Source: Amphiura filiformis
Lineage: Eukaryota; Echinodermata; Ophiuroidea; Amphilepidida; Amphiuridae
Reading direction: 5' to 3'
Length of the DNA stretch: 64,000 bases
Assembly (NCBI RefSeq): GCF_039555335.1
Contig: NC_092642.1
Coordinates: forward strand, 55,469,776 to 55,533,775
Shown here: positions 11,060 to 38,902 of the stretch, piece after piece
Layout of the letters: each line of letters starts with the position of its first letter
Numbering within the stretch: position 1 is the stretch's first letter
Position numbers and translations under genes: made by a program
Notes under the pieces: model-generated
Databases searched by the model: none
Seen by the model: only the letters and a program-made list of their open reading frames with translations
Told to the model about the DNA's origin: nothing

Positions 11060-11840
11060 TATACAATGATATAAAGAATTTTATCTCAAAATTATGAATT
11101 TTTCCCTAAAGTTATGAATTTTACCCTAAAATTACGAATTTTACCCTAAAATTACGAATTTTACCCTAAAATTACGAATTTTACCCTAAAATTACGAATT
11201 TCACCCTAAAATTACGAATTTCACCCTAAAATTACGAATTTTACCCTAAAATTACGAATTTTACCCTAAAATTACGAATTTTACCCTAAAATTACGATTT
11301 TTACCCTAAAATTACGATTTTTACCCTAAAATTACGAATTTTACCCTAAAATTACGATTTTTACCCTAAAATTACGAATTTTACCCTAAAATTACGAATT
11401 TTACCCTAAAATTACGAATTTTACCCTAAAATTACGAATTTCACCCTAAAGTTACGAATTTTACCCTAAAATTACGAATTTCACCCTAAAATTACGAATT
11501 TTACCCTAAAATTACCCTAAAATTACGAATTTTACCCTAAAATTACGAATTTTACCCTAAAATTACGAATTTTACCCTAAAATTACGAATTTTACCCTAA
11601 AATTACGAATTTTACCCTAAAATTACGAATTTTACCCTAAAATTACGAATTTTACCCTAAAATTACGAATACGAATTTTACCCTAAAATTACGAATTTTA
11701 CCCTAAAATTACGAATTTTACCCTAAAATTACGAATTTTATCCTAAAATTATGAATTTTACCCTAAAACTATGAATTTTACCCTTAAATTATGAATTTTA
11801 CCCTAAAATTATGAATTTTACCCTAAAATTATGAATTTGG
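11060..11840. repeat. 20-bp minisatellite ATTACGAATTTTACCCTAAA, ~39 copies
   Basis: Units are highly uniform between about 11110 and 11740, with C/T and A/T variants, one partial unit near 11510 and one near 11670. The outer units are more diverged (atgaatt). Each unit contains CCCTAA, the telomeric hexamer of most animals, in a 20-bp frame. Confidence 0.95.
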
Positions 11841-11891: not shown

Positions 11892-12363
11892 TTTGATGTA
11901 TATAGAATTGGCTTCATTATTAACTAAATGCAAACTATAGGCGGCGCTATTTATCCTAAATCATATTTCGTAATTTGCAAGAGGTAGGTGATCAATACTG
12001 CCATTAAAACAGATGGAATAGGTGGAACAAGCAACAAAGAAATTTTATAAACACGTTTCATCAAAAAATAAAAGGAATTATTGGCATTAAAAGCTTGAAA
12101 GAGTAATTTCCAGAAACTAAATAGCGCCACCAATTTTGTCATAAATAGATACATTTTATATCCGAAAAAGCTTTAAAAAATGCTGTAAAAGTGAATAATT
12201 TTAATATTAAAAAATAATAAAGAGGGAAATTAAAATTGAAAATGATTCAAAAGCATCTGTATACATTAGCATGATATCGCATTTAGCTGTTTAAGCCTAA
12301 AATTGGGTGGGTTGCACATAATGTTTTGTTTGAAAAACTAATAAATGAGCACATCAAACAACC
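11892..12363 (-). mobile_element. MITE family R, copy A
   Basis: It is ~80-90% identical by eye to the plus-strand copy at 20163-20572. Copy A carries an extra ~70-bp AT-rich piece and has lost part of one end. The shared hydrophobic open frame ([13 protein letters not shown]...) appears in both copies but looks like a repeat frame, not a gene. Confidence 0.75.
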
Positions 12364-12387: not shown

Positions 12388-13087
12388 CTATACAGGTACG
12401 CAGTATTCAGCATTCGTAGAGTGGAAACGCTGGCTCCCCAACCTGTTCCTGCGAATAAGAGCTCCCCGTGCTGTGACTTTGTCGCAGAGGCCTGCCAGGT
12501 GTTGTCGATAGGTAAGCGATCTGTCAAGTTTCACTCCAAGGTAGGTAGGGGTAGCTTGGAAAGCAAGTCGACTCTTATTGACCATGATGTTTAGCTCCCA
12601 CTTAGCTTCCTTGTTGTTCAGGTGGAAAGCTGCTGAAACTGTTTTCCCTTCACTGAGCTTCAGGCGCCAGTTCCTCAGATATGTTGATAGGGTATCCATG
12701 TCATTGTTGAGGACCTTCTCGATGTTTGACCATTTCCTGTGCGTTGACAGGACGGCTATGTCATCTGCGTAGCCGTACTTTTTTGATGTTGTCTCAGGCA
12801 GGTCATGGATGTAGATGTTGAATAGCAAAGGAGCCAGTACAGATCCCTGAGGAACCCCGTTGTTAAGACGGCGAAGTCTGCTTTGCTGTCCGTCACTGGT
12901 CTTCAGTACGAAGCTCCGGTTTGAGATTAGATTCAGAATGTAATGAACCATACGTCTGTCCGGTATCATGCGAAGTAGCTTTGCAGTGAGTCCCCTGTAC
13001 CATACGGTGTCATAGGCAGCAGTTAAATCCACAAGGACACCCCCTGCTTTCTCCTGGTTCTCAAATGTATAGATGTCCAGAACGTAG
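12388..13087 (-). mobile_element. Non-LTR retrotransposon reverse transcriptase fragment (YADD)
   Basis: The minus-strand frame reads GGVLVDLTAAYDTVW, then NNGVPQGSVLAPLLFNIYIH, then KYGYADDIAVLSTH, then WRLKLSEGKTVSAAFHLNN and YLGVKLDRSLTYRQHL, stopping after NAEYCVPV. These are fingers/palm motifs of a jockey/CR1-superfamily reverse transcriptase. The YADD acidic pair is present. It is 5'-truncated near 13087 and lacks the C-terminus and endonuclease. A MITE lies just beyond its 3' side. Confidence 0.88.
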
Positions 13088-14420
13088 TTCTAGAAACCCA
13101 ACATTTTACTGAGCAGATTGTAGTATATTTAATAGCCATTGGGGAATTGTACGCATACATAGGGTATATTTAGCAATACATTATAACCGTGAGCAGTCTG
13201 TACATAACATTTTTAGATGAACAATCGTGTACATTACATTTTTTCAGATGAGCAGTCTTGTACATAACAATTTTCAGATTAGCAGATTTTTCACTCCGTC
13301 GCTCCAGCTTCTTCAATCACTGTACCTCGGCCCGATGCTGTACCTTGTATGAGATGTTATACTCTATAGCCATCGGAACATAATTCTAGAACCCAACATT
13401 AGGCAGATTGTAGCATATTATATAATGGTGTCAGCAGTGGTGATAAAAATATACTACATTTTGCAGCGTGGAGCATTGTACAAAATTCGCGGCACCTGAG
13501 GCAGTGGTACATAGTGCAGTTATGATGCACAACAAACATGATTCGACCTTTGCAGTACTTAAACCTGGTTAACAGGAAATTACTCCAGCAAAATCAATCG
13601 ATAAAGTCTAGCCCATTTTCCACATTGAATGGTGGACTGCACTTATACCCAAATATGGCACTTGCGAATCAATAATCACCCACTTGAAATCCCCTGACTC
13701 GCTCCACTGACCAAAGTTATGGACAGATATGGGAGTTGTTTTTGCTGTTATCTGTCATTTAATGACCATAGAGGAAAGAATTGAAGTTTTTTACAGCTTC
13801 TATGGCGAAAATTGATCAAACCGATTACACGATGGTGCTCGCTCGAAGTTGGAGCTATCTCGAGTCAGCTGTTGAGCACAATTTGCCATTAAAATTACAC
13901 GTCCGACTGTTATGACATTTTGAAGACTCTCTTCGGAAAAACAGCTCGACAACAGCTTTCCCGTGACATTTTTACTTCAAATTGTAGTATGTTAAGGATG
14001 AACATTATAATTCACATGTGAGCCTCTATGGCTATTATTGGGTGAAGGGTTTTCCCTCCAGCCCACTAACTAGTCTATTGCTTATGCCTACAGTACAGTG
14101 AGTGAGCTAAAGGTCAATCATCAATTGGAGCGCTGTGTGTGCATTTTTGAATAGTTTTTCACCAAATACTCTTAAGAAGGTGTTTTTTTTACGAATAAGT
14201 GATAACAATTTGAAGCAGACTTTTCAATTTTGAGATATGAACCTTTTAAATTGGGTAAAGTTGTTTTTGGCCCACCCTTGTAGTGTGTGCAATAACTGAA
14301 ATTGGTAATCTTAATTATTTAGCTTTTTATTTAATATTAATGTATGTGCAATATCTTAAATATCTTTTAAATGTTTTTTATATGCTGAAAATTTGCATGG
14401 AATTTGACAAGTGATAGTTA
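13088..14420. repeat. Short local repeats, otherwise nothing recognised
   Basis: 'ttctagaacccaacatt...gcagattgtag' occurs near 13088 and 13383. Three ~35-bp units around 'gagcagtcttgtacataaca' lie at 13190-13285. No coding exon is seen from 13490 to 14420. Confidence 0.55.
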
Positions 14421-16102: not shown

Positions 16103-16297
16103 TTACTCGGTCAATCTCTCCACGATTTTCTTGGCGGAGCGTATAGCGAGGGCCACGCTGGTGAGGGTCGGGTTGCTGGCCGTGCCGGTGGGGATTACAC
16201 CGTTACCACCCAGGCACAAGTTGTCTATTCCCCACACACGGGAGTATTCATCAACAACCGACGTGCCGTCATCTTCCTTGCCCATACGTATTGTACC
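16103..16297 (-). CDS. Oxidase exon 8 (residues 471-534, C-terminus)
   Basis: The acceptor is ATATTTTCAG. The exon opens GTIRMG, continues [18 protein letters not shown] and [20 protein letters not shown], and stops after VERLTE. Asn512 is the second catalytic residue of the GMC His/Asn pair. The family's second His in THRMG is Ile473 here. There is no peroxisomal C-terminus. Confidence 0.92.
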
Positions 16298-19200
16298 CTG
16301 AAAATATATACATTAATATGGACGATTATTGGGCAAAATGATGACCATCGAATAATAAAGATCGTACGTACGCCCGTCTATTTAATCAAAATTACTTTCC
16401 TATGACGGATCAATGTCGCTAATATTATTTAGCCAGTATTTAAGACTCTGAACGTATAACATGAACGCGCGGACAACGCAGAAAATGCACAAGCGTTTTG
16501 CACTATATTATTATATGAGCTTGCGGCCTAGATATGTTTTAAGCCTTGACAGGCTGGGGGCCAGTTTCAAGAAAAAACATCAAGGTCGTAATAGATTTAA
16601 AAAAATAAATTCACCATTCTGTAGAGTGCAATTATGGCCGAATATAAATTAAAAACTAAAATCGACAAATTGGTATAATGCCAACAACTAAGTGGCATTT
16701 CCTTACTATCAAAAACATTGAAAATGATGTCAAAAACTATTAAAACACGATTTATTGCAATGGTCCATATTTAGAGGGTCTACGCCGAAACTTTCCATTT
16801 TGGTTTTTTTTTAATTTAGTAATCACCTAGCGTTTGTAATGTTATTTTGGTTTCAGTAAGCTAATATAGCTACTTTCTTGGTTAATATACCGATACTGAT
16901 ACCAGATGATTAATTATCATTCTTCGGATCAAAACAATTTAAACAATTGATTTTAATTTTATACGGCTTGTAGGTAACTAACCATGACATGGAATGCCTT
17001 GCCGTGCGGCATGACCTGAGGCAGGGAATCTGGCATGAATCCGCCTACGGCGGTGGCCGCCCGGATCATGTCCTTCATCATGGCGTGACTCAACTCCTTG
17101 TCTTCATCTCTGTAACATTACCATAAACAAAGACATTTAAAATGTGAGATTTCATAATCATGTACACAATGATATAGGAACAGATTGCACTACTTCGCAC
17201 AAAGCTATCACATAAAGTATGGCCCTGTGGACATAAAGATATCAAGATATTAGTTGCAATAAATGTAATATTATCATAAATTGTGCTTGTCCTCAGGGCC
17301 GGATTTACCATAGGGCCAGATGGGCCCGGGCCCAGGGCCCCCAAATTGCCCTGTGCAGTGTGCATCTTCCATTTTAGCCAAAAACACTATGTTTTGGGCC
17401 AAAAATTTTGCGAGCTTCGCGCGCACTGGCCTGTTATATAGCAAAATCAACTTCAATTCGGGCTAAAATAGTCTGAATTGAAATTTTTCGCGTGCTTCAC
17501 GCGCAAATGTCCTAGTAAAATCTACAAACTCCGGGCCACTTGAGTGCACATGCCTTCCTCACGGTGCGTTAGGGGCCTCCAAATTTTGGCCTGGCCCAGG
17601 GCCCCAAAAAAGGTAAATCCGGCCCTGCTTGTCCTTACTTCCTTTATTATGATCTACGAGTTTTAAATATTTTATAAAGAACCAGGATCAATTATGTCTA
17701 CAATAGGTAATCATGCACACACATGGATATGCTTGTAGCTTTCCATACGCCGTTATTGTACGCCCGTCTAGCTATTCAAAATCACTCTCCTGTGATGTAT
17801 CGAGGTCGCTAGTATATTTAGCCAGTATTTAAGATTCTGAACGTACGACATGAACGCGCGGACAAAACAGAAAATGCACAATATTTATACGTTTTGCAAT
17901 ATATTATTATATGAGCTTGCGGCCTAGATATGTTTAAAGTGCCAAGTTTTTATCGTTTTTTAGCCAAATTTGGGAACATTTTTCAAAAATTAGTATAATT
18001 TCGGGTCTCTTTTTTAAAGTCCCAGCCGCACATTCCCACCACCCAAACCAAACATGAGCATCTATGTCAATTATAAATAATATAAGGTTTAGTATATGTA
18101 TATTTTCTGCGTTTAATTCTAATTTCAATAAAAAGAGATCAAAATATTTACGTTAGAGTGACATTGAAGGTGGGTTGTGGCATCCCCATGCTGTCCTTGA
18201 TAGATTCAGAAAATGTGACGTAGTTTTCAGCACGCGGCGTCATTATTCCAAACCACCAGAAGTCGACGACAATTCGGCTGTCGATGTGTGATTGGGCATT
18301 TCCATAGGCGGTGTTCACTTGGCTGTGCCATGGCCGGGCTTCTGATACTGGAATGTATAACTAGAAACAAAACCACGTAATAAATCGCTACACCCCGTCC
18401 GTGTTTAGCTAAGATAGGCAATAATTGACAGCAAATAGCCTAAAAATGCATTTGAGAGTGCGTCCCATTATTGTTAAAAATCAGTACCCGGTTGATAGGT
18501 TATTAAAATAAAATATAAAATTGTGTATAGTTTGTCATGTTTGTGCGAGGGTTAGGCGCAGAAAAAAACACACGACCCGTTTGCCGGCCCTGTACAGTGT
18601 CCCTGTTTGCCGGTAACTTGTGGGGGTGGGTGCGCGCACGGGGTGTGGGGTGTGCGTGTGTGGGGGGTGAGGGCGGTGGTGTGGCGGTGGTTAATAATAC
18701 GAATGGACAAAAATACTATACTTAATTGTTATTATATATTGCTGACACGGACTTAATTATATCTAATATTCATACCTGGGGGTCAGGATCAGAGAATTTA
18801 AATGGCAGTGGATCCTGTGGGTATTTCTCGCGGTGTTCCTTTGCACTTCCAGCAAATCGTTGGTCGGTCTCCACACTATCAATGAGGCTCTGTTTCATCA
18901 CCACCTGCAATTAGCATTGACAATGGTATAATGAAGTCCTACTTACTACTCAATACTAACTTTTAAAACACATTTACCATATTAAATAATTTAGAAATTA
19001 TATATTGTGGTTATTTTTTTCTTTTGTGTTAATTGGGTTTACGATTTTGATACGATCAATTCATAGTTTTGAAACACAAAATCATTTTGTTCTAGTACTT
19101 TGTCAGTTTAAACTTTTAGAAAAGCTGAATTGGATAAGATGGCATTTGCCTTACAATTCAGGCAGAGTGGTGTGAAAGATTACAAATTAACAAGGGTGGT

Positions 19201-22200
19201 GATTACTGAAACATCTTAGAGTCAAACTGAGTTTCGAGATTGTGAGAATTTGTGAAATTTGCTAGTAATCACCATCCCTGATTGAACAACTTCACCAGGA
19301 TAGTAGACGTACGGTATACAAAGTCGTATTTCGTTGAATCTGATCCAGGAAATGCACTTACTTGTGTACGTTTCAGCAAACACTGTTTGCCTTTATCAAC
19401 ACTTGATGATGAGTGATTGCTGCTGGTGACCGATGATAGATGTATTTCCAGCGCAGGTCGTGGTCCGGGTCGTGGTGTTGCCAGGTGATTTTACATCTGG
19501 GGATTTTCTTGATCCTATTTTTAGAAACTCATCAAAACTGTGAGATAATTGATACTGTCCTCCATCTGTGTTGATGGTTGTGCCCATCCTCTTTCCAATT
19601 TCATTGCTGTTAAGATATTAAACTTCTTCATAACTCTGGACACCCTTTCCGTGACTCATTTGACATACGGACGGTACCATCACTGGTATGGCTCTTAATT
19701 GGATTAAAAGCTATCTACAGAGCAGAAACTTTCGCGTTTCAGTAGGTGCTGTATCACCTGATAAATATGAACTGAATTACGGTCTACCGCAAGGATCAGT
19801 CCTTGGACCACTTTTCTTTATTCTTTACACTTATACTGCATTGGATATATTATCAGAGAGTTCGGGATTTGCTATCACATTATGCTGACGATGTACAGCT
19901 GTACTTTTCCTTTGACCCAAAGATTGCTGGTGCTGCTGAACTTGCCTTATCCAGATTATCGTCTTGTATCAATGCTATTTGTCAATGGATGATGACGATT
20001 TTGCTGAAGCTTAATGACTCCAAAACTGAGTTTTTTGTAGCAGGATCGTCTCATAATCTAAAGAAGTTACAGACTGTATCTATCAAAATTGGTAATATGG
20101 ACATTAGACCCTCTTCGACCATTAAGAACCTTGGAGTCGTCTTGAATATTGATTTAAATAACGGTTGTTTGATGGGATCATTTATTAGATTTTCAAACAA
20201 AACATCATGTATAACCAAATTTTAGACTTAAACAGCTAAAAGTGATATAGTGCTATTATGTATACAGATGCTTTTGAGTCGTTCTCAACTCAACGGATAT
20301 AAAATGTATCTATTAATGACAAAATTGGTGGCGCTATTTAGTTACTGGAAATTGCTCTTTCAAGCTTTTAATACAAATAATAACTTTTATTATTTGATAA
20401 AATATGTTTATAAAATTTCCTTGTTGCTTGTTTCACCTATTCCAGCTGTTTCAATGGCAGTATTAACCACCTACCTCTTGCAAATAAAGAAATATGATTT
20501 AGGATAAATAGCGCCATCTATAGTTTGCATTTAGTTAATAATGAAGCCAATTCTATATACATCAAACAGCCATATATGTTATCTTCATATTTCATGCAAA
20601 AAATTTAAAAACTTTAAAAACCCGACACATGTACCTGACGTAATTTCAACCAAGCATTTCACTGTTTCGTAGTGAATGTGGATGTGGATGGCGGCGTCCT
20701 ACCATTCACACTACAGTTCATTCATAAAAATATCAAACTCACTCGATAGTATTGACCATAAGGTATATTCGAGCCAAATTTGGACGCCATCCGGGTATTT
20801 TGCCTTCATGTGCAATATTCATAAATATACCACAATAATACCCATATTTGGCAAACCATTACACAAATATTATACACAACTGCGCTAGAAATACGGTGTC
20901 ATTTTTGATACGGAAAATAGGTAGCTTCTCTTTTGATGTTTACTGAGGTATAGAGAGTGTAGCCTTTAACACGCAAAATTGGGAAGGCTATTTAGCATAA
21001 TAAAGGGTTAGTTCCCGATACACTGTGGAGCAAGGAAAGTGGTTATTTGCATAGTAAATACACTATTAAATCACGGCGAGATGTAAATTGGGTGATGATG
21101 TCACAGCTCATTAGAGTTTGTCACTCGCTCTATTGCAACTTGTTGTGATGGTAAATGAGGCTATAGAACTAAAAAGAAGAGAGGCACCACCATGAACAAA
21201 GATGAAGGACATTGTCAATTATCTCACATTTTTCGATAATTTTCTAAAACTGGGATCAAAAAAATCCCCAGATGGAAAATCAAATGGCAACACCAATACC
21301 TGTGCTGGATATACATCCAGTGTCGGTTGCCAGTAGCAATCACTCATCATCACGTGTTGACATCTCAACATTGTGTGCTAAAACGTACACAAGTATAGGG
21401 AGAGCGTGGCGCAATGGTTAGGGTACTGCCTTTAGTGCATGAGATCCCGGGTTCAATTCCCGGCGGTGGCGATTAGCCGGGATATTGACTTGAAAAAAAA
21501 AAGTCTGAAATTAGTTGGCAACTTCTGTAGATTAAATTCAGACTTCCGCTCTCCCCATGGTTCATTTAGAATTGGGTAAAAGAATCATGAAAGTACTCCG
21601 TCCTTCGGAGGGGACGTTCAGCCGTCGGTCCCGTGTGCAGAGAGCCATACCTGTACATGTATCTCGCAGCCAGTTTCGAAAAGAGTAGGTGTTAAACCCT
21701 GACTGTTCCCAACCCGACCCGGTGTTCAAATGGACCCCAATGGAAATAAGCTTCAATAGAGGCTTTCTTGGGTTATCCAGGGTTGTCAAAACCCGAACAA
21801 ATCAGATCAAAATATAAAGTGCGATTTATGGATCCGATCGAACGAACTTTGTTTACTGAATCACTAGCTCTGTTTACACTATCTTTGGAAATTATTCTCG
21901 TTATACCAGCTTATACCTGAGTGAATGTGATTGGTTGTTCTGACAGATAATGTCCAAGAGCCTTCGGTCGGATTCCCGAATTGAAGAGGATTTGTGGCGT
22001 CAAAATAGCGCCAGCAGTCACCACGAATTGATTCGCATGCATACGAATGAGTTGATCTTTCTGCAGATCGCGCACTACGGCATAGTCAATTTTATCACCA
22101 TCAGATGTTAATACCAACTTCTCTACCAAATGTTGAGCCTGAATATACAAAGAATATATAATATACTTACTCAATTGAACATTCATTCATTCATGGTTTT

Positions 22201-25200
22201 TTCATGGTTTATTAAAAGACACAGTCGCTGCTAAAAAGCTGAATTGATGTGAAATTTACATTAAAAAATAACAAACACTGCATGACATATAAAATACAAA
22301 GAAACACCCCCACACCCCTCACACCCCCCCCCACCTACACACCCCACACACAAAGCACACATATTCGACCAAGGGGCGAGACCTCCTCTTGCAACCAAAT
22401 CCCAAGGTAAGAAAAGTCCGCAGCTGAAAGTGCAGACAACATGACCTGAGAAAAAAGTGGAAAGTAGGTGGTCTCGCCCCAGGACAAAATCATTGAAATA
22501 AGTAATAAACAATAAATATCTTCACCGACTGTGGAAATTTCATAGTGAAATAATATCGTAGAGCATTGAAATTGCATGGACAAAACAATCTCCTTGCATT
22601 ATAGCTACATGGCCATAACAATCATCTTTGCCATTTATCTCAAAATTTACCCAATATGTGACTCAACCCCTTTTTATGTCTTCACACACGATTTTGTTGG
22701 CAACAACTACTGTGGGGCATTAGGTTACACACCACTAATAGACCTGGGCGATGCATGGCAATACAGCGAGTAACTATTTGTTTGTATGTCATTTAAAAAG
22801 ACTGCTTTAAAATCACTGAAATTGACCCAAGTTATATAGCCAAAAAAGTACATTTTTGGGTGTGATGCTTCGAAATGGTATATTTTCTCTCATTATATGA
22901 CATTTCTGGTGTAATATCATCCGCACGGCATCAGTTTTTAGTAAATATTCGCCCTACCATATTTAGTCTAATTTGGCGGTATTTTGTGCCAGCTCACGAG
23001 TTTTAGGTTTTTCCAGGCATCAGGGGAGCTGCCCTATAAACCTCATTATTATTTATGATTTACATAATAGAAAGCATGGAATTATAGCTCTCTTTTTTGA
23101 CCAATTTCGAGAAGAAGAAAAACAAGAAATGTCCAAAGGAACGTCTTGATGTATGATTTGCTTTCAGAATGGCTTCAAGTTACGTGTATTTTATTGCTAA
23201 ATGGGGTTAATTTTGGGTCTTGAATAGACCAAAAGGAAGATGCAAAAAAATATTGGAGCCCAGCAGGGGAGGCGGACTTCAATATTCCATTGGTGCTGAT
23301 GAAGGGTACGGTGCGGAGGGGTGAAGGGACGCGCACATATGTATTGTCTATTTCATGCAATAAAGAAAACGTGTGTACCTATCATGGACCACCTCACCTC
23401 AACGCGCCTGCCAACATTGTAGGCCCAATAGACCCACCCGATAGAGTCTATATATGACCAACGTATTGTAGTTTCTTGTGGTTTTACCCCCCCCACATGA
23501 TGTGAGAGACTCTTTACACTATCTCTCTCTCTCTCCCCACCCTCTCCCTCTCTCTCTCTCCCCCTCTCTCTCTCTCCCTCTCTCTCTCTCCCTCCCTCTC
23601 TCCTCCCCTAGAGATCGCCAGGGGGTGTCGAACCCCCGCATGGCGAAGGCCCTGATAGCGGAATATGTTTATAATTATTAACAAGTGAGAATGTCTACCT
23701 TGAGAGTGAAGCGTGACTTGCATTCTGAATCGTCAAGTAACGGGCCAAATATGTCGTCACTTCCGGTCCAGTGCACAAAGTCTGGGTTATCCTTTAAACG
23801 GTAGCCAGCAAAAGGGATGTTCTGAGGGCGAGCGTCTCCTTGTAATTCATTGAATTCTGCCTAATAATGTTATGGATGGAAATAACAAATAAGATTAAAC
23901 TCCTTTCTGCGATCAAGTCATGGTTTAAATATTGGTACTGGATGAATATTTTGCAGTATTATTATCTTTTGCAGATGCTTAATTTATACTTTATAAGCGA
24001 ATATAGATGACATGATGCTTTCTAACGCTATCACCAGAGTTCGTCATTTTGTTCTAAAATTATATAGAGGCCCACATTCTAAAGAAATCGAAGTTGTATT
24101 TGAAACATAATTATATAGGCCTACCAACGCTGCCTTTGGTGAATGTGGTAGATTTCCAATTTATGTTACTTGTATGATTCGTTGTGTTAAATTTTGGTTT
24201 CAACTTCTAAATACGAGGGTTGGTCAATAAGTCCTCGCAACTGCTATGTATTTCCGCTCAAGCATGACTTTGATTACTGTTACTTATCATAAATACAAGT
24301 TTGTACCTTTGTCTTTCAAAACAAATGTGCAATAGCGAGGTTGCATACTTGATGACGTAATCTCATTAGCATAAACACAGTAGCCTGTGAACACTGCATG
24401 ATTTATGGTGAAAAGTAGTGGAGAAAATAGCGAGCCAAATTGAGATAATTCCAAATATCTTGAGAATAAAAGTATGGAATCTGGCGCGGTTTTGCAATTT
24501 TGTAGTTGATGCTATACTCTTTTTGGACCTATACCATTTTTATTAAAGATCAGTGATCATGTTGAATATCTCCACTTTTAAGTAGGCTTTGTCAGCCATT
24601 GGTTCTTTACGTAATAAGAGATAGCAAGATTTATCAACGACAAAATTTAACAAATGGTACCTGATTGGATTGGGTAACTACTGATTATTAAAAAGGGAGC
24701 TTCCGGTGAGGAAATCACAAACATTTCTCTATTAATGAACCCTTTGTTTTCAAAATGTCATGTTTTTGTAATAAAAGTAGCACACCATAGAGAGGCTCTA
24801 GATTGAATACGAATTGTGAATTTCAAAAGGTTCGTTTAATTTTAGCATGAGACTCAGTATAGCAAACACTCACACTGTTACTGTCCCGCAATATTGTATT
24901 TAGTCATATTTTTAGCGCTTTCAAGTTTTGATGAAACTTTTAATCATATATACCAGCAACGCATGCGCATATTTATATTTTTATTGTAACAATTTCTATT
25001 GTCCTGAATATGCAATGTTCATATTTTTGGTATTGCGCTATATCAAGCGCCGTTGTTATGTTATGTTATGTTATGTTATGTTATGTTATGTTATGTTATG
25101 TTATGTTATGTTATGTTATGTTATGACCTCTCACACCATACCAATAATTATATTTGTTTTTGTGTCATTTTGCAGATAATTTTGATTATTGTGTCTACCT

Positions 25201-28200
25201 TGAGTGCTCGTCTCTCATGATTTTCACACCATTTTTGGTTGTCGTTAAGGCCTATTTTTGATGCATTTCAAAGACGGTCCCTTTCTTCATCTGTTAATGG
25301 ATACATTTCTTCTCTCACAATTATCAAGTGAATATACTCAGATTACCTCAGACAAAAATAAGGCTTGTAAACTGCTTTGGTACTTACTTATGCTTCTTTT
25401 ACACGTTCCTTAACTACAATTCAAATTTCCCGCCAATGTTGACAATTGTCAGTGCATATATAGCAGTGACTTTATGCAAATGAGGTTACGTAATTCAAGA
25501 TACTCGAATAGAAACTGTCGTGTGTTTTGAAAGACAAAGGTAAAAACTTGTATTGTACAGTCATCAAAGTCATGCTTGAGCGGAGATGGTAGCTGCGAGG
25601 ACTTATTAACCAACCCTCGTATGGACAATAACAGGTATCCAAAAAAGTGATACATAATGTCATTTTATCTTGATGACAGAGGTTCATCAACCTGTGTAAT
25701 GCATGTTAAAATATTCTTTTATTGCATGGCTTTGGCCATGTTTGGTACAATCAAGGTGTTGAAATGAATGTCTTTTTATGTACATAAGACTTGAAGATGT
25801 TGCAAAACAAAACTGGTATTCTGAGGTAACTTCACTTGATAAGTTACGAACTTATTACACTTTCAAGAGTCAATTGACTCCTGAAAAATATCGTTTTGAT
25901 GTAAAATACGCCTCATATAGGCTTTTGAAAGCTAAATTAAGGCGTTCTAGTTATATTCTTAAGATTGAAACAGGAGCAGGTAGAAGACTGAAATTGGATT
26001 TGGAGGACCGGGTTTGTGATCTGTGCAGGGATATGGGAATATTGAAGATGAATATCATTTTGTCATGGTCTGCAAGTTTTTCGATAATATTCGTCAAACA
26101 TATCTTCCATTCAGGCACAGATCCGAACAGTCCCCCAAAATTAATTTCTCTCATGAGTTCTGATACACCACCTGACATCATCTCTCATTATTTGTTTTTC
26201 ACGCCATAAAACTTCGTGAAATGATTGAATTTTTGTAATTATATCTCCATGTTATTCATATGTCTTCCTCATTATGTAATCACTATATTTGTAGTGCTAA
26301 GGGCCAAGGGCCTATATGTACAAATAAAAGTAGAAGTCAGGTCATTTCAGGTAATTGAGGTTTTGCGTAATTTCCACATGACGTCTATGGCAAGCTAAGC
26401 GGCTCAGAACGTGGGACTAGCTACGCGCAGCTTCTTTCTCGTTACGTGCAGCTTATTAACCAATCAGATTCGCGGTTTTAAACACGTGGAGCTGATGTAA
26501 ACATCCTCTCTCACAAATATTACGTTGTTAATTTTTGTAAATGAAAATATCTGTAGTATATCAGCAAAAAATGGTATAGGTGCTATTAAAGTAATATCTG
26601 AACAGAATGATGATTGTTCTATATTTAGGGGGCTATCATTTCTTCGGAAGGGATCCCAAATATAGGGGTCATACCTTTTTGGAAGGAAAAATAAGGGGAG
26701 GGGTCATAAATTGATAATGACAAAATGTAGGGAGTCACAAAATGACTACAGATAGTGTGTTTATTGTATTCAAAAGGACTGATTTCAATACAATTTTAGC
26801 CTGTCTAGGGGTAAGGTGTATCGGTGGTGGGAGTCGGGGTCATAACATTTTGATGCCGAAATAGTGAGGGCCGCAATTTATTGACGGCGACTTTTTGTAA
26901 ATTTAGGACCCCCCCCCCACCCGTTCCGAAAAAAATGATGACCCATTTTACTCTCTCCATATTTACACAGTGGCATGTGATATCGCTTTCCCTGCAATAT
27001 CTTTACACAGCGCTTTACATCAGTAGTAGTTGTTGTTTGACCTTCAGATTCCCTGCACCGCTAATACAGCACGAGTATAAAGTTACTTGCTATTAAACAC
27101 GGTGTAAACTTGGAAACACTGAATAAATATGCTTTGTGTCATTTTAGCCAGGCATTAGCAACATGTTCTCTTGACACGTGCTGTGATTTGGCCTCCTTTA
27201 CCCGTTCGTTATCTATGCTAATTCCGTAAATTAATTACAAGATAATAATTGTGAAAGAGGATACCTATAACTATACTACGCGCAGCTAACGACCCAACCA
27301 CGTGATTAAATTTGACTATTTTGATTGGTCAAACAGCTGCTCGTAACGAGAAAGAAGCTACGCGTAGCTGTTCCACGCTTTTGGCCCCCTTGGCTTGCCA
27401 TAGACGTCACCGTTTGTCTATGACGTCATGGTTACCATATGATGTAATAGTCACAAGTAAAAGACAACAACGAAGCCAAAGATTCTGAAGTTGATAATTC
27501 TGAATCTGAGGAGGAGTCATCGGATGAAGAGACAAGCGATGAACTGGTACGTACAACTTCGCACAAGCCATGGAAGCCACTGAAGAGATGAGAGCTGAAA
27601 AATATGAGAAGTACATTGCTGAGGGTTTGGACCAAGAGCAGGCTAAGGAGAAAGCCTACACGAAGACCTTGTGGGCTGTTAAACGTGTCTTTTTAAAACA
27701 TTTTACCACATTTTTATGGAATTTTGCCCATTTGAATGATGATGACCTGTATCAAGAAATCACGGATGAGCTTGAAGACAAAATGGACAAAATTCCATAA
27801 AAACGTGGTAAAATGTTTTAAAAACCTCAATTACCTGAAATGACCCGACTTCTACTAATAAATCTAAACTGAAACTGAACTACAGTACTTTGGTTTATAT
27901 AATTGTTTGCATGTTTTGTTTTGCTATCAGTGCAGGTTCAATTACCTGCAATTTTTCCTTGACAATCGTGTTCCTGACGGAGTTTTGAAAACTATCCCTG
28001 TTTGTCAAGAGAAGTTTTTCAGCTTCGTCATAGAGTGATAACCACTCCTCCCCGGATATAATATCTGACCTCTCCACGGTTGGATGATGACGTGGTGTGG
28101 AGCAATACCAAAGAGTTCCCATCCCACCCACAGCATAGGTTACTGCAGCACCATCAAGGTTAACTTGTGGGTCCTGATCCGGGTTCTGGTTATTCTGAAT

Positions 28201-29361
28201 ATAGCTGTAGTTTAAAGGAAATATATTTTCAATTTGATATTAAGGCCACCTATACTGTTGGACCCCCGATGACCCTTTTGACTTTTTGACATGTTTCCAT
28301 CATATCGAGGATTCTTTTTACCACGTTTGAGCCCAATCGGGCATACATAAACGTTTGACCCCATGCGACCTTTGACCTCGAGTGACCTCGATTTGATTTT
28401 GTTCATGCTCCCATCCCATATGATATGGAGAATTACTTTGATCAAGTTCAAGCACAATGCGGCGAAGTTTAAAATTTAGCCCTAGATGACCTTTGACCTC
28501 GGATGAACTCGATTTAGATTTTTTCATGCTCTCCTAATACGAAGGATTCCACCCACCAAGTTTAAGCCCAATTGGGTTTAAATTTAGCCCCTATATATGA
28601 TCGACCTGTGTCCTCGTTTGACCTGGATTATATTTCATACATATATTCCACTCGTATCGAGGATTCAACCCACCAAGTTTGAACCCGTTGAAATTTTGAC
28701 CAAATTTACCAAATTAAGCCCTAAATGACCTTTGACCTCGGTTGATCTCGATTTCATTTGGCACATTATATTTACCTCGTATCGAGGATTCTACCCACCA
28801 ATTTAGAGCCCGATCGGACAAATTGTGACATTTTGACCCTCCAATTTGGTGACCTATGACCTTCGAAACCACCCGTCAACATGCTTTTTCTGACACTTTA
28901 ACCTATGTCGGTATGTCCCAAATATCGGATTGATGCGTCGAAGCGCGGCGAAACGCATAACTGGACACACAGAGACCGCTCATTAGTAGGCCTATGTCAG
29001 ATTTCTTTCCGATAATTTTGTATTAATGTTATTTACCAAAAACAACAACACTGGCATACCCCTTATAATCACTGGTGCTCAGTTTGAATGCTATTGGATC
29101 GAGCGACGGAGTTGTCGCGTTATTGGTCGGTACTGACGCTATTAGAAGATGTGACGCCACCAATGGATTGAATTTGTCTCTGTTGCGCTGATAATACGCC
29201 GCGTTCCTCAGGTTCGCCCCTGCTCGCTCAGAGTGATACGCTCCTGCTTCCAGCATGCACACTGAACACCCATCCTGGACCAATTTTCGAGCAAAGGTCG
29301 CGCCGGCGGGTCCACTTCCGATAATCAGGACGTCATGACACGCTGACCTAATTTGATTCAT
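16103..29361 (-). CDS. Pyranose 2-oxidase-like GMC flavoprotein, 8 coding exons, 534 aa
   Basis: Exons (complement): 29060-29361, 27946-28204, 23699-23860, 21917-22138, 18776-18904, 18152-18360, 16983-17109, 16103-16297. They total 1605 nt, all introns are GT-AG and all phases agree. The protein opens with a Rossmann FAD motif (GSGPAG, residues 15-20; Glu38 as likely ribose ligand). It then follows pyranose 2-oxidase throughout: GGMGTLW (127-133), [35 protein letters not shown], and the end [16 protein letters not shown]. Family knowledge: these enzymes oxidise sugars (or C-glycosides in bacterial relatives) and reduce O2 or quinones. His468 and Asn512 match the catalytic pair. Leu132 replaces the His that binds FAD covalently in fungal enzymes, so FAD is probably non-covalent (inference). 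No signal peptide and no C-terminal SKL are seen, so a cytosolic location is likely. Fungal enzymes are longer (~620 aa). The natural substrate is unknown. Confidence 0.9.
16368..16545 (+). repeat. Direct repeat copy 1 (oxidase intron 7)
   Basis: It begins 'cgtacgcccgtct', passes 'agccagtatttaaga' and 'catgaacgcgcggaca', and ends 'cggcctagatatgttt'. It is about 88-90% like the copy at 17755-17940. Confidence 0.88.
16983..17109 (-). CDS. Oxidase exon 7 (residues 428-470, catalytic His)
   Basis: The acceptor is GTTACAG and the donor is ATG|GTTAGT. It encodes [20 protein letters not shown] and then HVM. His468 aligns with the fungal catalytic base in HLGGTHRMG. Near-identical ~170-bp direct repeats lie in the introns on both sides of this exon. 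Confidence 0.9.
17294..17627. mobile_element. hAT-type MITE with 8-bp target duplication
   Basis: The ends are CAGGGCCGGATTTACC and its near complement GGTAAATCCGGCCCTG. CTTGTCCT occurs directly on both sides (17286-17293 and 17628-17635). CAGGG-type ends with 8-bp duplications are typical of the hAT superfamily. The interior is GC-rich with GGGCCC runs. No transposase. Confidence 0.93.
17755..17940 (+). repeat. Direct repeat copy 2 (oxidase intron 6)
   Basis: Same orientation as the copy at 16368-16545. The two copies bracket exon 7, so unequal pairing would delete or duplicate that exon. An extra 'atatttatac' is the main length difference. Confidence 0.88.
18152..18360 (-). CDS. Oxidase exon 6 (residues 359-428, substrate domain)
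   Basis: The acceptor is TTTCTAG and the donor is GTAAAT, leaving two bases of codon 428. It encodes [28 protein letters not shown] and [12 protein letters not shown]. The substrate loop (NTAYGN, about 374-379) looks about three residues shorter than the fungal loop DAFSYGAV, so sugar selectivity may differ (inference). Confidence 0.9.
18776..18904 (-). CDS. Oxidase exon 5 (residues 316-358)
   Basis: The exon is 129 nt in phase 0, with acceptor AATTGCAG and donor CAG|GTATGA. It encodes [14 protein letters not shown] and then [16 protein letters not shown]. This matches the pyranose-oxidase segment with ELIDSV and the DPLPIPFEDPEPQ-like proline-rich turn. The substrate-domain insert is shorter than in fungi. 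Confidence 0.88.
19680..20162 (+). mobile_element. CR1/L2-like reverse transcriptase fragment
   Basis: It reads [19 protein letters not shown], then [20 protein letters not shown], shifts frame, then [36 protein letters not shown] and KNLGVVLN. These are palm motifs B and C with the YADD acidic pair, plus the thumb. One frameshift lies near 19855. It is truncated at both ends; a MITE begins at 20163. Confidence 0.88.
20163..20572 (+). mobile_element. MITE family R, copy B
   Basis: The ends are GGTTGTTTGATG and the complement of CATCAAACAGCC. It is related over most of its length to the minus-strand copy at 11892-12363. Both copies abut a different reverse-transcriptase fragment. An 85-codon hydrophobic frame is shared. 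Confidence 0.75.
21397..21800 (+). repeat. tRNA-headed SINE in oxidase intron 4
   Basis: The head is AGGGAGAGCGTGGCGCAATG with A-box TGGCGCAATGG, B-box GGTTCAATTCC and a CCCGGGTT..CCCGG stem. The body includes 'ggacgttcagccgtcggtcc' and 'acctgtacatgtatctcgca'. The 3' part 'ccaatggaaataagcttcaa' runs to a 'tgtcaaaaccc' tail. The related SINE at 10610-10780 is on the other strand. Confidence 0.72.
21917..22138 (-). CDS. Oxidase exon 4 (residues 242-315, second FAD-domain half)
   Basis: The acceptor is TATATTCAG and the donor CAG|GTATAA; it is 222 nt in phase 0. It encodes [20 protein letters not shown] followed by [16 protein letters not shown] and YLSEQPITF. This is the GMC signature-like 'TAGA..T..LL..SG' strand that returns to the flavin, with the family's SxYITEQ-type segment after it. 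Confidence 0.88.
22371..22485. repeat. Short hairpin in intron 3
   Basis: 'ggggcgagacctcc' near 22373 pairs with 'ggtggtctcgcccc' near 22470. A C-rich CACCCC run precedes it at 22303-22350. Confidence 0.6.
23521..23606. repeat. (CT)n microsatellite
   Basis: CTCTCTCC-type repeat in oxidase intron 3, about 100 bp from exon 3. The RERERE/SLSLPL frames are artefacts of it. Confidence 0.95.
23609..23670 (-). repeat. Possible tRNA-like SINE remnant
   Basis: The minus strand reads GGGGGTTCGACACCCCC, a perfect T-arm with a B-box, after 'gccttcgccatgc'. No A-box is found, so only a remnant is claimed. Confidence 0.4.
23699..23860 (-). CDS. Oxidase exon 3 (residues 188-241)
   Basis: The exon is 162 nt, phase 0 on both sides, with acceptor ATTATTAG and donor AAG|GTAGAC. 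It encodes [20 protein letters not shown] and DDIFGPLL. This corresponds to the family segment QQIPLAATRR..PTFVEWSS..TVF that leads into the second half of the FAD domain. No methionine begins it, so it is easily missed without splicing. Confidence 0.85.
24214..25619. mobile_element. Mariner-type non-autonomous element, 1.4 kb
   Basis: The ends are CGAGGGTTGGTCAATAAGTC and its near complement at 25601-25619, flanked by TA on both sides. The similarity continues ~150 bp inward (ctcaagcatgactttgat, acctttgtctttcaaaac). No transposase frame was seen. A (TTATG)14 array lies inside. It sits in oxidase intron 2. Confidence 0.85.
25056..25125. repeat. (TTATG)14 microsatellite
   Basis: Fourteen perfect 5-bp units in a row. 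The MLCYV repeated frame on the plus strand comes from it. Confidence 0.97.
25740..26328 (+). mobile_element. LINE 3' fragment with C-terminal Cys motif
   Basis: It reads [18 protein letters not shown], then [20 protein letters not shown] and CDLC, followed by a frameshifted region ending near [10 protein letters not shown]. The ETGxW..R..C..C pattern is the C-terminal zinc-binding region of many non-LTR elements. The 3' UTR ends in 'gtacaaataaa'. The rest of the tail (taaatctaaactgaaactga) is at 27857-27885, across a TIR element. Confidence 0.75.
26329..27856. mobile_element. 1.5-kb TIR element inserted in a LINE tail
   Basis: The ends are AGTAGAAGTCAGGTCATTTC and its near complement at 27837-27856. 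The arms also share 'catagacgtca', 'acgagaaagaagct' and 'acgcgcagct' in inverted orientation. AATAAA borders both sides, and the LINE tail continues on the right. Part of a protein frame sits near the right end. It lies in oxidase intron 2. Confidence 0.8.
27471..27800 (+). pseudogene. Decayed reading frame in the 26329-27856 element
   Basis: A first frame reads [16 protein letters not shown], an acidic stretch, then stops near 27590. A shifted frame gives [40 protein letters not shown], and ends [17 protein letters not shown]. Spacing of charged residues and the even codon pattern suggest a former protein. I do not recognise the family. It is interrupted by at least one frameshift and has no upstream promoter evidence. 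Confidence 0.45.
27946..28204 (-). CDS. Oxidase exon 2 (residues 101-187, flavin-attachment region)
   Basis: The acceptor is CTACAG and the donor CAG|GTAATT. It encodes [12 protein letters not shown] and then [14 protein letters not shown]. In fungal pyranose oxidase the matching stretch is GGMSTHW followed by Thr, where the His carries the 8-alpha-N3-histidyl FAD bond. Here that His is Leu132 and the Thr is Tyr134. Confidence 0.9.
28255..28870. repeat. ~120-bp tandem repeat with TGACCTTTGACCT in intron 1
   Basis: About five diverged units, each with 'gacctttgacctcg', 'gacctcgattt', 'cgaggattc.acccaccaa' and 'ttagccct'. Copies start near 28255, 28365, 28487, 28600 and 28726. The TGACCT pairs form direct repeats with one-base spacing. 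Confidence 0.85.
29060..29361 (-). CDS. Oxidase exon 1 (residues 1-101, FAD-binding N-terminus)
   Basis: It encodes the start Met and the dinucleotide-binding strand-turn-helix ([18 protein letters not shown]), then the YYQRNRDKF segment conserved in pyranose oxidases. The donor is AGG|GTATGC at 29059. A second GTAAAT donor at 29036 leaves the wrong phase for exon 2. The ATG sits one base after a good acceptor (polypyrimidine then ACAG, 29364-29363), and an in-frame TAA lies just upstream in genomic DNA. A non-coding leader exon spliced in from further upstream is therefore likely. Confidence 0.88.
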
Positions 29362-29599
29362 TCTGTATTAAGATAACATAATGGTAAAATTAAATTAATT
29401 TCCATATTGAATATTTAATATTGAGTAATTATGATAAGTGTTATGGTAATTATCAATATAAATCTGATCACTTATTATTTGTTGAGTAGTGCACATAGGC
29501 CTACCTTTAAAATCGTCATCAATGCCCCTATATAAATTCAGCAATGAAGCCAAAAGAACCAGCTATGTCACGATTTAGGGGGAATTTAGTATGAGGTTT

Positions 29600-31245
29600 T
29601 CATTTCTAATATTTTTCCTCATAATACAATGAAAAACAAAAGCAATAGCATTACAAACCCTAATAAAACAAAGTCAAACATAAGAATTGTATTATGAGGA
29701 AAATGATTAGAATTGAAAATAAGCATCTAAAAAGTCATTCTTATGTTTGACTTTGTTTTATTAGGATCTGTAAATATATTTCTTTTGTTTTTCATTATAT
29801 TATGAGAAAAATTATGAGAATTGAAAATAAGCATCTAGAAAAAAGTCATTCTTATGTTTGACTTTGTTTTATTAGGATCTGTAAATCCATTTCTTTTGTT
29901 TTTTATTGTATTATGAGGAAAATTATGAGAATTGAAAATAAGCATCTAGAAAAAAGTCATTCTTATGTTTGACTTTGTTTTATTAGGATCTGTAAATATA
30001 TTTCTTTTGTTTTTCATTATATTATGAGGAAAATTATGAGAATTGAAAATAAGCATCTAGAAAAAAGTCATTCTTATGTTTGACTTTGTTTTATTAGGAT
30101 CTGTAAATATATTTCTTTTGTTTTTCATTATATTATGAGGAAAATTATGAGAATTGAAAATAAGCATCTAGAAAATAGTCATTCTTATGTTTGACTTTGT
30201 TTTATTAGGATCTGTAAATCCATTTCTTTTGTTTTTTATTGTATTATGAGGAAAATTATGAGAATTGAAAATAAGCATCTAGAAAAAGTCATTCTTATGT
30301 TTGACTTTGTTTTATTAGGATCTGTAAATATATTTCTTTTGTTTTTCATTATATTATGAGGAAAATTATGAGAATTGAAAATAAGTATCTAGAAAAAGGT
30401 CATTCTTATGTTTGACTTTGTTTTATTAGGAAGTATATTTCTTTTGTTTTTCATTGTATTATGAGGAATATTATGAGAATTGAAAATAAGCATCTAGAAA
30501 AAGTCATTCTTATGTTTGACTTTGTTTTATTAGAAAATGTAAATATATTTCTTTTGTTTTTCATTGTATTATGAGGAAAATTATGAGAATTTAGATTTAC
30601 AACCCTTATAAAGAAAGTCAAACATACGAATAACTTTCTTTCTAGATGCTTATTTTCAATTCGCACAATTTTCCTCATAATACAATGAAAAACAAAAGCA
30701 ATAGCTTTACAAACCCTAATAAAACAAAGTCAAACATAAGAACAATTAAAAAAAATATATATATTTCTTTTGTTTTTCATTGTATTATGAGAAAAATTAT
30801 TAGAATTGAAAATAAGCATCTAAAAAAGTCATTCTTATGTTTGACTTTGTTTTATTAGGATATATAAATATATTTCTTTTGTTTTTCATTGTATTATGAG
30901 GGGAATTATGAGAATTGAAATTGAGCATCTAGAAAAAAGTCATTCTTATGTTTGACTTTGTTTTATTAGGATATGTAAATATATTTCTTTTGTTTTTCAT
31001 TGTATTATGAGGAAAATTATGAGAATTGAAAATAAGCATCTAGAAAAAAGTCATTCTTATGTTTGACTTTGTTTTATTAGGATCTGTAAATATATTTCTT
31101 TTGTTTTTCATTATATTATGAGGAAAATTATGAGAATTGAAAATAAGCATCTAGAAAAAAGTTATTGTTATGTTTGACTTTATTTTATTAGGATTTGTAA
31201 ATATATTTCTTTTGTTTTTAATTGTATTATGAGGAAAATTATTAG
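29600..31245. repeat. ~110-bp satellite array, left part
   Basis: The repeated unit contains 'gaattgaaaataagcatct', 'cattcttatgtttgactttg', 'tattaggatctgtaaat' and 'tttcttttgtttttcatt'. About 14 units are seen. The unit at 29600-29690 and another near 30590-30740 are reversed. The array stops at 31245 at the edge of an inserted element and resumes at 38903. Confidence 0.93.
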
Positions 31246-31521
31246 AATGCAGTTTAATTTGTACATATCAAATGAAACAAAAAATTATCCCTGCTGCTGA
31301 AATGGAATCGCCCTCGTGATGTCACGCGATGTTTCCATGGGAAGCCAATTGGGTGCCTTGTTTGGTATCAGGCGGGCCAATCACAGGCAGCCTTGCTTGG
31401 AGCCGTCGGTGGCCATTTTGTTAGCTAAGGCCATTCTCTGTCAGTTTTTCAGCAAGAACGGATGCAGAAATTTTTTATTCAACTATAAGACAATGAATAG
31501 GCCGTCACAGCTTACAAAAAA

Positions 31522-36689: not shown

Positions 36690-38902
36690 GCAGTTTAATT
36701 TGTACATATCAAATGAAACAAAAATTTATCCCTGCTGCTGAAATGGAATCGCCCTCGTGATGTCACGCGATGTTTCCATGGGAAGCCAATTGGGTGCCTT
36801 GTTTGGTATCAGGCGGGCCAATCACAGGCAGCCTTGCTTGGAGCCGTCGGTGGCCATTTTGTTAGCTAAGGCCATTCTCTGTCAGTTTTTCAGCAAGAAC
36901 GGATGCAGAAATTTTTTATCCCACCCACCACTCCCCATATGTCATAATTGAGATCTGTTTAAAATTGATTTCAAGAGTTTGATAGTGTGTCATAAAATTT
37001 GAGTCTCGCAGTAGTGAGACAAGTACATATAAAGTGTCGGTCTTCAAATTAAAAGGTAATGAGGAATGAGATGAAATACGAAAGAGAAAGGAAAATATAT
37101 TCGATTGAGAGTTCTTTGAATTTGAATAATATTCTAATTACATTGAGGTTTTTGAGTTACATAGGAGTATGACTATTGTATACGGGTGTGAGAGTGTGCG
37201 TGGGTAGATCACTTTAGGTTCAATTTCTATCTCAGCAACACATTCTATTCTGTTGCGCAGTTGTATTTTCTGAAATTCTATTTGTATAGGTGTGTTCACT
37301 CTAGTGTGTCTTCAGAAGCATTAACAAAATCGATACAATTGGTACCACTTTCAGTCTTAGGTGGTAATGCCCTTCAGTCTTAGGTCGAGTAATTTTATTT
37401 ATAGCAGGAAGGAAGGAATTAACACCAGGTTGGCATGGGATAGCTAGACAGGGGCCAAGTACTATGCCCTCAGATTTTTCTTGTTCATCAAAGTATAAAT
37501 AAAAATGAAATATTGGGTTCAAGTTTTTATGAGGTTGCGCAGCCGGCTGGTTATCGCGTTAATTTCTGTTAAAGGCTGCCTTTTGTATTAGACATGATAT
37601 CCTAGTTATGTATTCGAATTCATAAATGTGCAGAGCATGGCACTGTGTTTGCTTGGCGTTGGCAGCGAAAAATAATGGGTTTTGCAATTAACTCCTTCAA
37701 CATGTTCAAACAAAAAATCGGGTTAATGGTCCACTGTGGTGAAGAGGCCTCGACCGTAAAATTCAGAGGCTCTTCAAATAATCGCAAACGTGGATCTTGC
37801 GGTATTTATTATGTATGTATGTATTATTCACTGAGCGTGTTTGTAGAGAGCCAGCTTATCAGTTAGGCGCTTATCACCGTAGAAGTACTTCAAGATCATT
37901 TGCCAGTGCAGTGTGGTATTTCCGTGATAAACCACTACAAGCACGCTCGTAATATCATTATGCATTTAAAGTGCATTTTGGTCAATCATACATAGTAATG
38001 TTATTCTAATTTAATTATATTGATTTAATTGTTACTGCCTAAATGTATTGAGATTTATTTATATACCAATCACTCTTGTTTACATTTAATTTTATTACTT
38101 TGTTGAGCTATTAGTATCACTTGTATATTGATGTTGATGATTGATGAAAACGAAATATGAATGAATGAATTTACTAGCAAAGGAAATGAGGGGATCAGAA
38201 ATAGCTTATTCCATGGTACAGGGTACGGATGTTAACAAGTAGTCCTTGTGGCAGTTTTTGGATCATTTTTCTAAAATGATCGATTTAATGTACAGAATTA
38301 TACATGTACTACATTAATAAATTCGATTTAGTAGTTCCAATATCCGGAGGTATCTACCTACTGGGTATTTGGCATGGGTATATTTACCGATGTCCACTAT
38401 GTAATCTGAATATGAATATAATAGGAAAATGAGAAAGGTATCAGCCATTTAATTTCTTTTGACGCGCTAGATGACTGCCTAGCGAATTCATGTAAGTCCG
38501 CGGCATTTTATATTCTCTCCATTGGTATTATGGAGCTTTTATTTCCTCCTCCGAGGAGATATCGTGTAGAGGATTGCCTAGCGAAATATTTGTCCATTGG
38601 TATATGGAGCTTTTCCTCCTCGATAAGGAGTTGATCGCTAGATGAGTGCCTAGCAAAATAGTTCCCAGTGTGTTAAGGGGAACTCTTGGGTTATAGGCGC
38701 AACAAGCTTCCCAGTAATTGTTGGGAGGCTCGGTCGGGTATTTACTCCGTTCGAAAAAGTTGTCCAGAAATCATTATTATTTGGCTGATTCAGGGAATTT
38801 TCTAAAAACATTGCTTGAATAAATTATGCGTTCTTTCTGAATGGCTGACCAGAGGCCCAAATTTTGGCGTATGTGTTTTCGTCATTTCAGTGTCTGGGGA
38901 TA
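36690..38902. mobile_element. Element E2 (2.2 kb), second head-to-tail element
   Basis: It shares the 5' ~215 bp (36690-36918) and 3' ~660 bp (38243-38902) with E1 almost base for base. Its middle is different and includes a LINE-like tail around 38110-38170 (gttgatgattgatgaaaacg, then tgaa repeats). It directly follows E1 with no spacer, and the satellite resumes at 38903. Confidence 0.75.

Follow-up and report, generated by a model that had tools for sequence, protein, structure and literature searches.

A gene of the pyranose oxidase lineage with a changed active site in a repeat-rich genomic stretch

Characterised relatives of the gene reported here include the pyranose oxidases (POx, AA3_4) of the cyanobacterium Oscillatoria princeps (OPOx) and of the fungus Trametes. 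OPOx is an experimentally proven enzyme that has been purified and crystallised, and passages of its description (PMC11650716) name His125 as the residue that tethers flavin adenine dinucleotide (FAD), Thr127 as believed to stabilise the C4a intermediate, Asp373, Phe375 and Tyr377 as key in the substrate loop, and His470 and Asn514 as catalytic. In Trametes complexes, according to a passage of PMC3897772, Asp452 and Thr169 hydrogen-bond sugar hydroxyls, and the saturation mutagenesis passages of PMC4190269 show that, among 11 active-site positions, Thr169 tolerated change least, with 64% of colonies inactive. Here we describe a gene of this lineage in a 64-kb stretch of contig NC_092642.1 (the window, meaning the whole stretch that was analysed), in which the catalytic pair is kept and the flavin tether, the Thr site and the substrate loop are all changed. 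We favour, with moderate confidence, the explanation that this would be a functional gene of a eukaryotic host, most likely an animal, derived from a microbial pyranose oxidase and turned to an altered enzyme.

Gene structure and family assignment

The gene lies on the minus strand (29361-16103), where eight exons splice to 1605 nt, that is, 534 sense codons followed by TAA. All seven introns, 415 to 4085 nt long, are of the GT-AG type with agreeing phases (5/7 phase 0, 2/7 phase 2), the alternative frames of the spliced coding sequence hold 29 and 32 stops, and the introns have a guanine-plus-cytosine fraction of 0.375, compared with 0.551/0.410/0.530 at the three codon positions. Alignment to the POx of two bacterial genomes (G396 and G229; handles in G and L are our own, for genomes and loci) is free of gaps around all seven junctions, within about 8 residues on each side. 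The Actinomadura POx alignment has one gap, at one junction only, and OPOx and Trametes show insertions or deletions near the first three junctions, with one further in Trametes at the sixth. The eight exons and 534 intact codons proposed in a first-pass annotation of this DNA are thus confirmed by splicing, by the introns and by the junction alignment, with the strand being minus, and we hold with high confidence that the gene is intact. It is present as a single copy within the window (tblastn E ≤ 1; blastn E ≤ 1e-3).

An intact frame could in principle belong to a young or dying copy, recently inactivated or unexpressed, whose frame has not yet decayed, and both the abundance of repeats and transposons in the surrounding region and the uncertain 5' end of the gene would fit such a copy: an acceptor-like CAG (TTAATACAG, 29362-29371) stands one base before the ATG, so that the transcript may begin with a further, unseen exon. 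In the 1 kb beyond the stop codon, the polyadenylation-like words closest to it are ATTAAA at 15626 and 15536, at a rather long distance. We nevertheless consider a dying copy very unlikely, as frame and splice sites are intact and simulated unconstrained decay usually breaks the frame at 2-5% of sites redrawn (2000 runs; the frame survives in 2.3% of them at 2% and in 0.05% at 5%). The simulation is crude, in that redrawing can leave a base unchanged, the rate of indels is an assumption, and it covers the frame and not the splice sites.

Judged by sequence comparison, the window protein is almost certainly a member of the POx lineage by descent. It matches the NCBIfam pyranose oxidase model TIGR02462 with E=1.8e-156 and 522.2 bits over residues 10-532 (model positions 2-547 of 548), compared with 68 bits for the next-best NCBIfam model and 57 bits for the choline dehydrogenase model. 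A search of the PDB (phmmer, best 60 of 66 matches) gave as top solved structure the cyanobacterial OPOx (1.4e-138, residues 9-529), followed by further POx structures from Trametes (~1e-98), the 4mif group of Phanerodontia chrysosporium (~1e-92) and 8qve (1.7e-70); glycoside 3-oxidases (G3Ox) came in at 4e-59 and 5.1e-53. The match to POx is full-length and colinear, running through the FAD motif and the arm and head regions, and across residues 44-80, the part tested for the G3Ox Insertion-1 that replaces the arm domain, the protein aligns with POx and not with the G3Ox-like rows. One result speaks against this assignment, as the 544.9-bit cut-off of TIGR02462 is not reached; this cut-off does not bound proven enzymes, because the Oscillatoria princeps POx itself scores 495.4 bits (in a genome search, whose scoring is not strictly comparable).

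The presence of a GMC C-terminal domain (PF05199, 2e-20) is what would be expected of an ordinary animal GMC protein of the choline or glucose dehydrogenase type, with a superficial likeness to POx. We regard such a protein as extremely unlikely, since choline and glucose dehydrogenases fall hundreds of bits short of the POx models and structures and the match is colinear throughout; the best GMC structure outside POx and G3Ox was fructose dehydrogenase (1.1e-12), with glucose dehydrogenase (2.1e-11) and choline oxidase (5.9e-9) following. The pyranose-oxidase identity given in the first-pass annotation was therefore borne out, and the placement among choline or glucose dehydrogenases that it had named as the contrary outcome did not occur by NCBIfam and PDB scores, the tree described below being one without animal GMC proteins. 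To the known sources that it gave, basidiomycetes and some actinobacteria, passages of PMC11650716 add the cyanobacterial OPOx.

Active-site changes and proposed function

Across the columns that are near-invariant in POx (at least 10 of the 11 other POx rows), the window protein keeps 105/126 residues. In leave-one-out comparisons other divergent rows keep similar numbers (Trametes 105/126, OPOx 106/127, G1185 101/121, G950 99/128), with rows that have close kin keeping more (G396, 111/113); its conservation is therefore like that of other divergent rows and argues against general decay. Both catalytic residues are retained, as His468 and Asn512 (aligned with OPOx His470 and Asn514), and so are Gln372 and Tyr377. 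A loss of the catalytic His was considered and rejected: by OPOx numbering the catalytic His is that of LHxxGT, not that of GTHRMG.

Against this background, three parts of the active site differ. Leu132 stands at the position of the FAD-tethering His; it is not among the 21 departures counted above because the tether column itself varies (Leu in G950, an engineered Ala in the Trametes row, which is the H167A mutant entry 2ign, so that this Ala is not natural). Tyr134 replaces a Thr found in 18/18 relatives (11/11 POx and 7/7 G3Ox-like rows). Finally, three residues are missing from the substrate loop, and an Asp present in 11/11 POx rows and a Phe present in 9/11 have been lost; two alignments put the loop gap in different places, with the same residues lost in both. 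Because the tether His, the Thr and the loop Asp and Phe are changed or lost, canonical glucose 2-oxidation is doubtful, and on comparison of these positions an altered chemistry seems rather likely. The role suggested in the first-pass annotation (hydrogen peroxide (H2O2) production, glycoside oxidation) presumes a working POx active site and needs revising on account of the same changes.

In the altered enzyme as we picture it, FAD would be bound without a covalent link, with Leu132 in place of the tether His; His468 and Asn512 would take the proton of the alcohol, and N5 of the flavin would receive the hydride. With Tyr134 being bulky and the loop cut short, other molecules would fit the pocket, and the group oxidised would therefore most likely be a secondary alcohol in some larger or different compound (polyol, sugar derivative or glycoside) and not in free glucose. 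More tentatively, and as a possibility to which we give well under half of our confidence, an animal lineage may have domesticated a microbial pyranose oxidase whose active site was rebuilt (untethered FAD, a Thr-to-Tyr gate, a cut loop) for a new substrate range. If so, the rebuilt enzyme may be used in chemical defence or in metabolising a polyol or glycoside peculiar to animals. A POx branch with an active site rebuilt in this way was not reported in literature titles and the starts of abstracts, among the matches listed.

Several observations weigh against an altered enzyme. A tether change by itself is tolerated: the bacterial POx of G950 (L066/L084, GGMSTLWT) likewise has Leu at the tether, and passages of PMC11650716 report that OPOx H125A is still active, with kcat down tenfold and KM up sevenfold; and according to passages of PMC4190269 Trametes T169H retains 14-19% activity, and no Thr169 variant moved towards dehydrogenase activity, the last of which speaks against a mere switch of electron acceptor. 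A T169Y variant was not seen in the mutagenesis passages of that paper. The changed residues could also mark a lost rather than a new activity.

The same observations bear on the alternative of a working canonical pyranose 2-oxidase, which would oxidise C2 of glucose or related sugars with release of H2O2, for instance as part of defence or of digestion in the gut. Besides the retained His468/Asn512, FAD motif, Gln372 and Tyr377, this alternative draws on the dispensability of covalent FAD, seen in OPOx H125A and, according to passages of PMC10646112, in G3Ox, and on the residual activity of T169H. Set against it are the loss of the loop Asp and Phe and the Thr-to-Tyr change at a site that is otherwise Thr throughout, given that Asp452 and Thr169 contact the sugar in Trametes, and we judge a canonical enzyme unlikely. 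Three separate changes in the active site amid otherwise normal conservation might instead point to a pseudoenzyme that keeps fold and FAD site and has lost catalysis, acting as a flavin-binding or structural protein; with both catalytic residues retained, we consider this quite improbable.

Relatives, setting and origin

The nearest relatives found are actinobacterial, with identities to the window protein of 52.6% (G396), 50.9% (Actinomadura), 50.2% (G229) and 48.2% (G152), followed by OPOx (44.2-46%), G1185 (42.3%), G950 (39.1%), Trametes (38.1%) and three other actinobacterial rows (~35%). Genomes for the survey were reached through a contig scan with two search patterns, which cover part of the family and led to Actinomadura latina and Oscillatoria princeps; among viral contigs, two stretches matched a pattern and yielded no relatives. 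The POx model scored above its cut-off in at least 4 of 396 genomes in the first phylum (centred on Actinomadura latina, which is counted in) and in at least 0 of 386 in the second (centred on Oscillatoria princeps, itself at 495 bits), both counts being lower bounds as at most 3 candidates were scored per genome. A protein search at 1e-60 found matches in 9/249 genomes, five with POx-group proteins and four with G3Ox-like proteins only, and searches at 1e-90 found them in 2/39, 2/200 and 1/195 genomes. POx thus looks sparse in the surveyed bacteria. As a side observation, a POx relative on the Sinorhizobium meliloti plasmid pSymB (L076, CP090106.1), near an acyl-homoserine-lactone synthase gene, was matched in two pieces annotated as two coding sequences, and is possibly a frameshifted copy.

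Bacterial POx neighbourhoods hint at the pathway that the ancestral enzyme fed. At 6/10 bacterial loci (G396, G001, G229, G847, G844 and G950; loci L080, L081/L092, L084, L085, L086 and L088) an IolE-like gene in the same orientation starts no more than ~130 nt from the POx match, and these neighbours are 36-65% identical to the Actinomadura IolE-type protein (itself 100%). That protein matches TIGR04379, myo-inosose-2 dehydratase, with 367 bits (cut-off 290); the model was applied to this protein only, and the other IolE-like genes were assigned by their similarity to it. The stretches around the POx of G152, G826, G1185 and O. princeps held no IolE-like match at 1e-5, and beside the G152 POx lies a different TIM-barrel gene that Pfam places in the same family. 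A gene resembling the propeller part of aldos-2-ulose dehydratase (AUDH) occurs at 3/10 loci (G396 by PF22301, G847 and G844 by tblastn), an aldose 1-epimerase gene also at the G396 locus, and a GH15-type gene at the G229 (Pfam) and G001 (tblastn) loci. In fungi, POx and AUDH make cortalcerone from glucose, according to the title of a work cited by PMC11650716. Together with this fungal pathway, the dehydratase-type neighbours suggest that free sugars may be what bacterial POx oxidises, the 2-keto product then going on to dehydratases, and the bacterial loci are a possible counterpart of the fungal cortalcerone route. Such operons were not found in the available text of the POx papers examined (cluster words, 0) or in AUDH titles, which is no proof that they have gone unreported.

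The final tree holds 19 rows, of which 12 are POx (window protein included) and seven G3Ox-like, with L009 dropped and L090 added and with a single fungal row, Trametes; L072, L076 (half a protein), a second truncated frame of L070 and duplicate gene copies were left out of the trees. POx rows split from the G3Ox-like rows with support of 100/100, and the best tree pairs the window protein with OPOx, a pairing that is unsupported (38/84). In the approximately unbiased (AU) test, a position of the window protein as sister to Actinomadura is compatible with the data (p=0.193). A first 19-row tree, which included the long branch L009, was poorly resolved, and in it the POx branch had support of only 83/68. 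Two results run counter to a straightforward bacterial source: a clade of the window protein with Actinomadura, G396 and G229 was rejected (AU p=0.0115), and a position as sister to the fungal row was compatible (AU p=0.456). The groups for these tests were picked after the first tree had been seen, and the bootstrap had not settled.

The window itself is rich in repeats and transposons (Table 1). Pfam matches among 10 open reading frames of the window were to reverse transcriptases only (3/10), with no host neighbour gene among them; Rfam gave no match at gathering scores, no transfer RNA was found in the window, and IolE, AUDH, aldose epimerase, GH15 and epimerase partners were absent from it at E ≤ 1. 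The palindrome TAGGCCTA occurs 18 times in the window, compared with 0.53 expected from dinucleotides. The reverse transcriptases are presumably of the long interspersed nuclear element type, that is, lacking long terminal repeats. Bacterial contamination was considered and rejected, as a repeat in intron 4 recurs in the flank; because intron 4 holds this shared repeat and a weak reverse-transcriptase match, the gene is host DNA.

Table 1. Positions of the gene's parts and of other features in the window
Feature	Position	Strand	Description
Exon 1	29060..29361	-	start ATG 29361-29359; Rossmann FAD motif GSGPAG; FAD_binding_2 residues 10-51
Exon 2	27946..28204	-	flavin-tether motif GTLWYC; most relatives xxHWTC
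Codons 132-134, Leu-Trp-Tyr	28105..28113	-	aligned with OPOx His125-Trp126-Thr127 (numbering of PMC11650716)
Exon 3	23699..23860	-	
Exon 4	21917..22138	-	end of GMC_oxred_N match, residues 241-310
Exon 5	18776..18904	-	
Exon 6	18152..18360	-	shortened substrate loop
Substrate-recognition loop VNTAY	18304..18318	-	lacks three residues that most POx relatives have; Tyr377 kept
Exon 7	16983..17109	-	catalytic His468, codon 16991-16989
Exon 8	16103..16297	-	catalytic Asn512, codon 16174-16172; stop TAA 16105-16103
Reverse-transcriptase-like open frame in intron 4	19776..20222	+	host transposon, antisense to gene; RVT_1 4.2e-05, 23.8 bits, below gathering score of 29.6
273-bp repeat in intron 4	20294..20566	.	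92% identical to inverted flank copy at 11892-12164
Reverse transcriptase outside gene	50918-51763	+	RVT_1 2e-27
Reverse transcriptase outside gene	12391-13089	-	RVT_1 3.8e-22
Tandem array, 111-112-bp unit, two blocks	29686-31248 and 38902-39646		first block just upstream of gene; inverted unit 30632-30745
Tandem array, ~38 copies of 20-bp unit	11076-11838		
268-aa open frame	58532-59335	-	no Pfam match at E ≤ 0.01

The gene is likely to be of horizontal origin. The transfer would probably be old, with introns acquired later, and its direction is inferred from the bacterial spread; the ancient transfer proposed in the first-pass annotation is plausible on this view. The gene might instead belong to another intron-rich eukaryote, not an animal, or descend vertically from an old eukaryotic ancestor with losses elsewhere. 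POx is patchy in fungi, where transfer or massive loss is discussed in passages of PMC6509819, and the compatible fungal sister position agrees with such a history; long introns and reverse transcriptases of non-LTR appearance would, by contrast, fit an animal. We give this alternative a low probability, and on function it overlaps with our preferred explanation of a transferred gene turned to an altered enzyme. A pyranose oxidase in an animal was not reported in the titles and abstract starts of open-licence literature, among the matches listed, the available text of the POx papers examined does not contain the word 'animal', and in its available passages an insect transcriptome paper (PMC6204003) names pyranose 2-oxidase in a reference only. 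If the host is an animal, POx would extend beyond fungi and bacteria.

Comparison with known enzymes

The gene offers a natural experiment on sites already explored by enzyme engineering of the fungal and cyanobacterial POx, in that flavin tether, Thr169 and substrate loop are all changed and the conserved core is kept. OPOx (PDB 9FL2) is similar in length (534 aa in passages of PMC11650716) and has the FAD motif and the catalytic His and Asn in common with the window protein; it differs in its covalent FAD at His125, its Thr127 and its full loop DNFSYG, the counterparts in the window protein being Leu, Tyr and a loop with three residues fewer. The four actinobacterial POx of highest identity (48-53%; G396, Actinomadura latina, G229 and G152) include, in Actinomadura, a 13-residue stretch identical to that of the window protein. 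All four keep THWTC and RDAFxY, which the window protein does not, and three of the four genes adjoin an IolE-like gene, whereas the window gene is interrupted by introns, and no such partner accompanies it in the window.

Fungal pyranose 2-oxidase of Trametes (PDB 2IGN and others; 38-39% identity) shares the catalytic pair and the fold, and differs by insertions, an N-terminal extension (the match begins at chain residue 47), covalent FAD, Thr169 and Asp452/Phe454. Among the glycoside 3-oxidases, PsG3Ox (7QF8) and MtCarA (7DVE) match more weakly, at 5.1e-53 and 4e-59 respectively. PsG3Ox has a homologous fold and, according to passages of PMC10646112, binds FAD non-covalently although the tether His is present, a mode of binding that is predicted for the window protein as well. 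The G3Ox-like proteins of our tree, which are relatives of this kind other than PsG3Ox and MtCarA themselves, keep the Thr that in the window protein is Tyr134.

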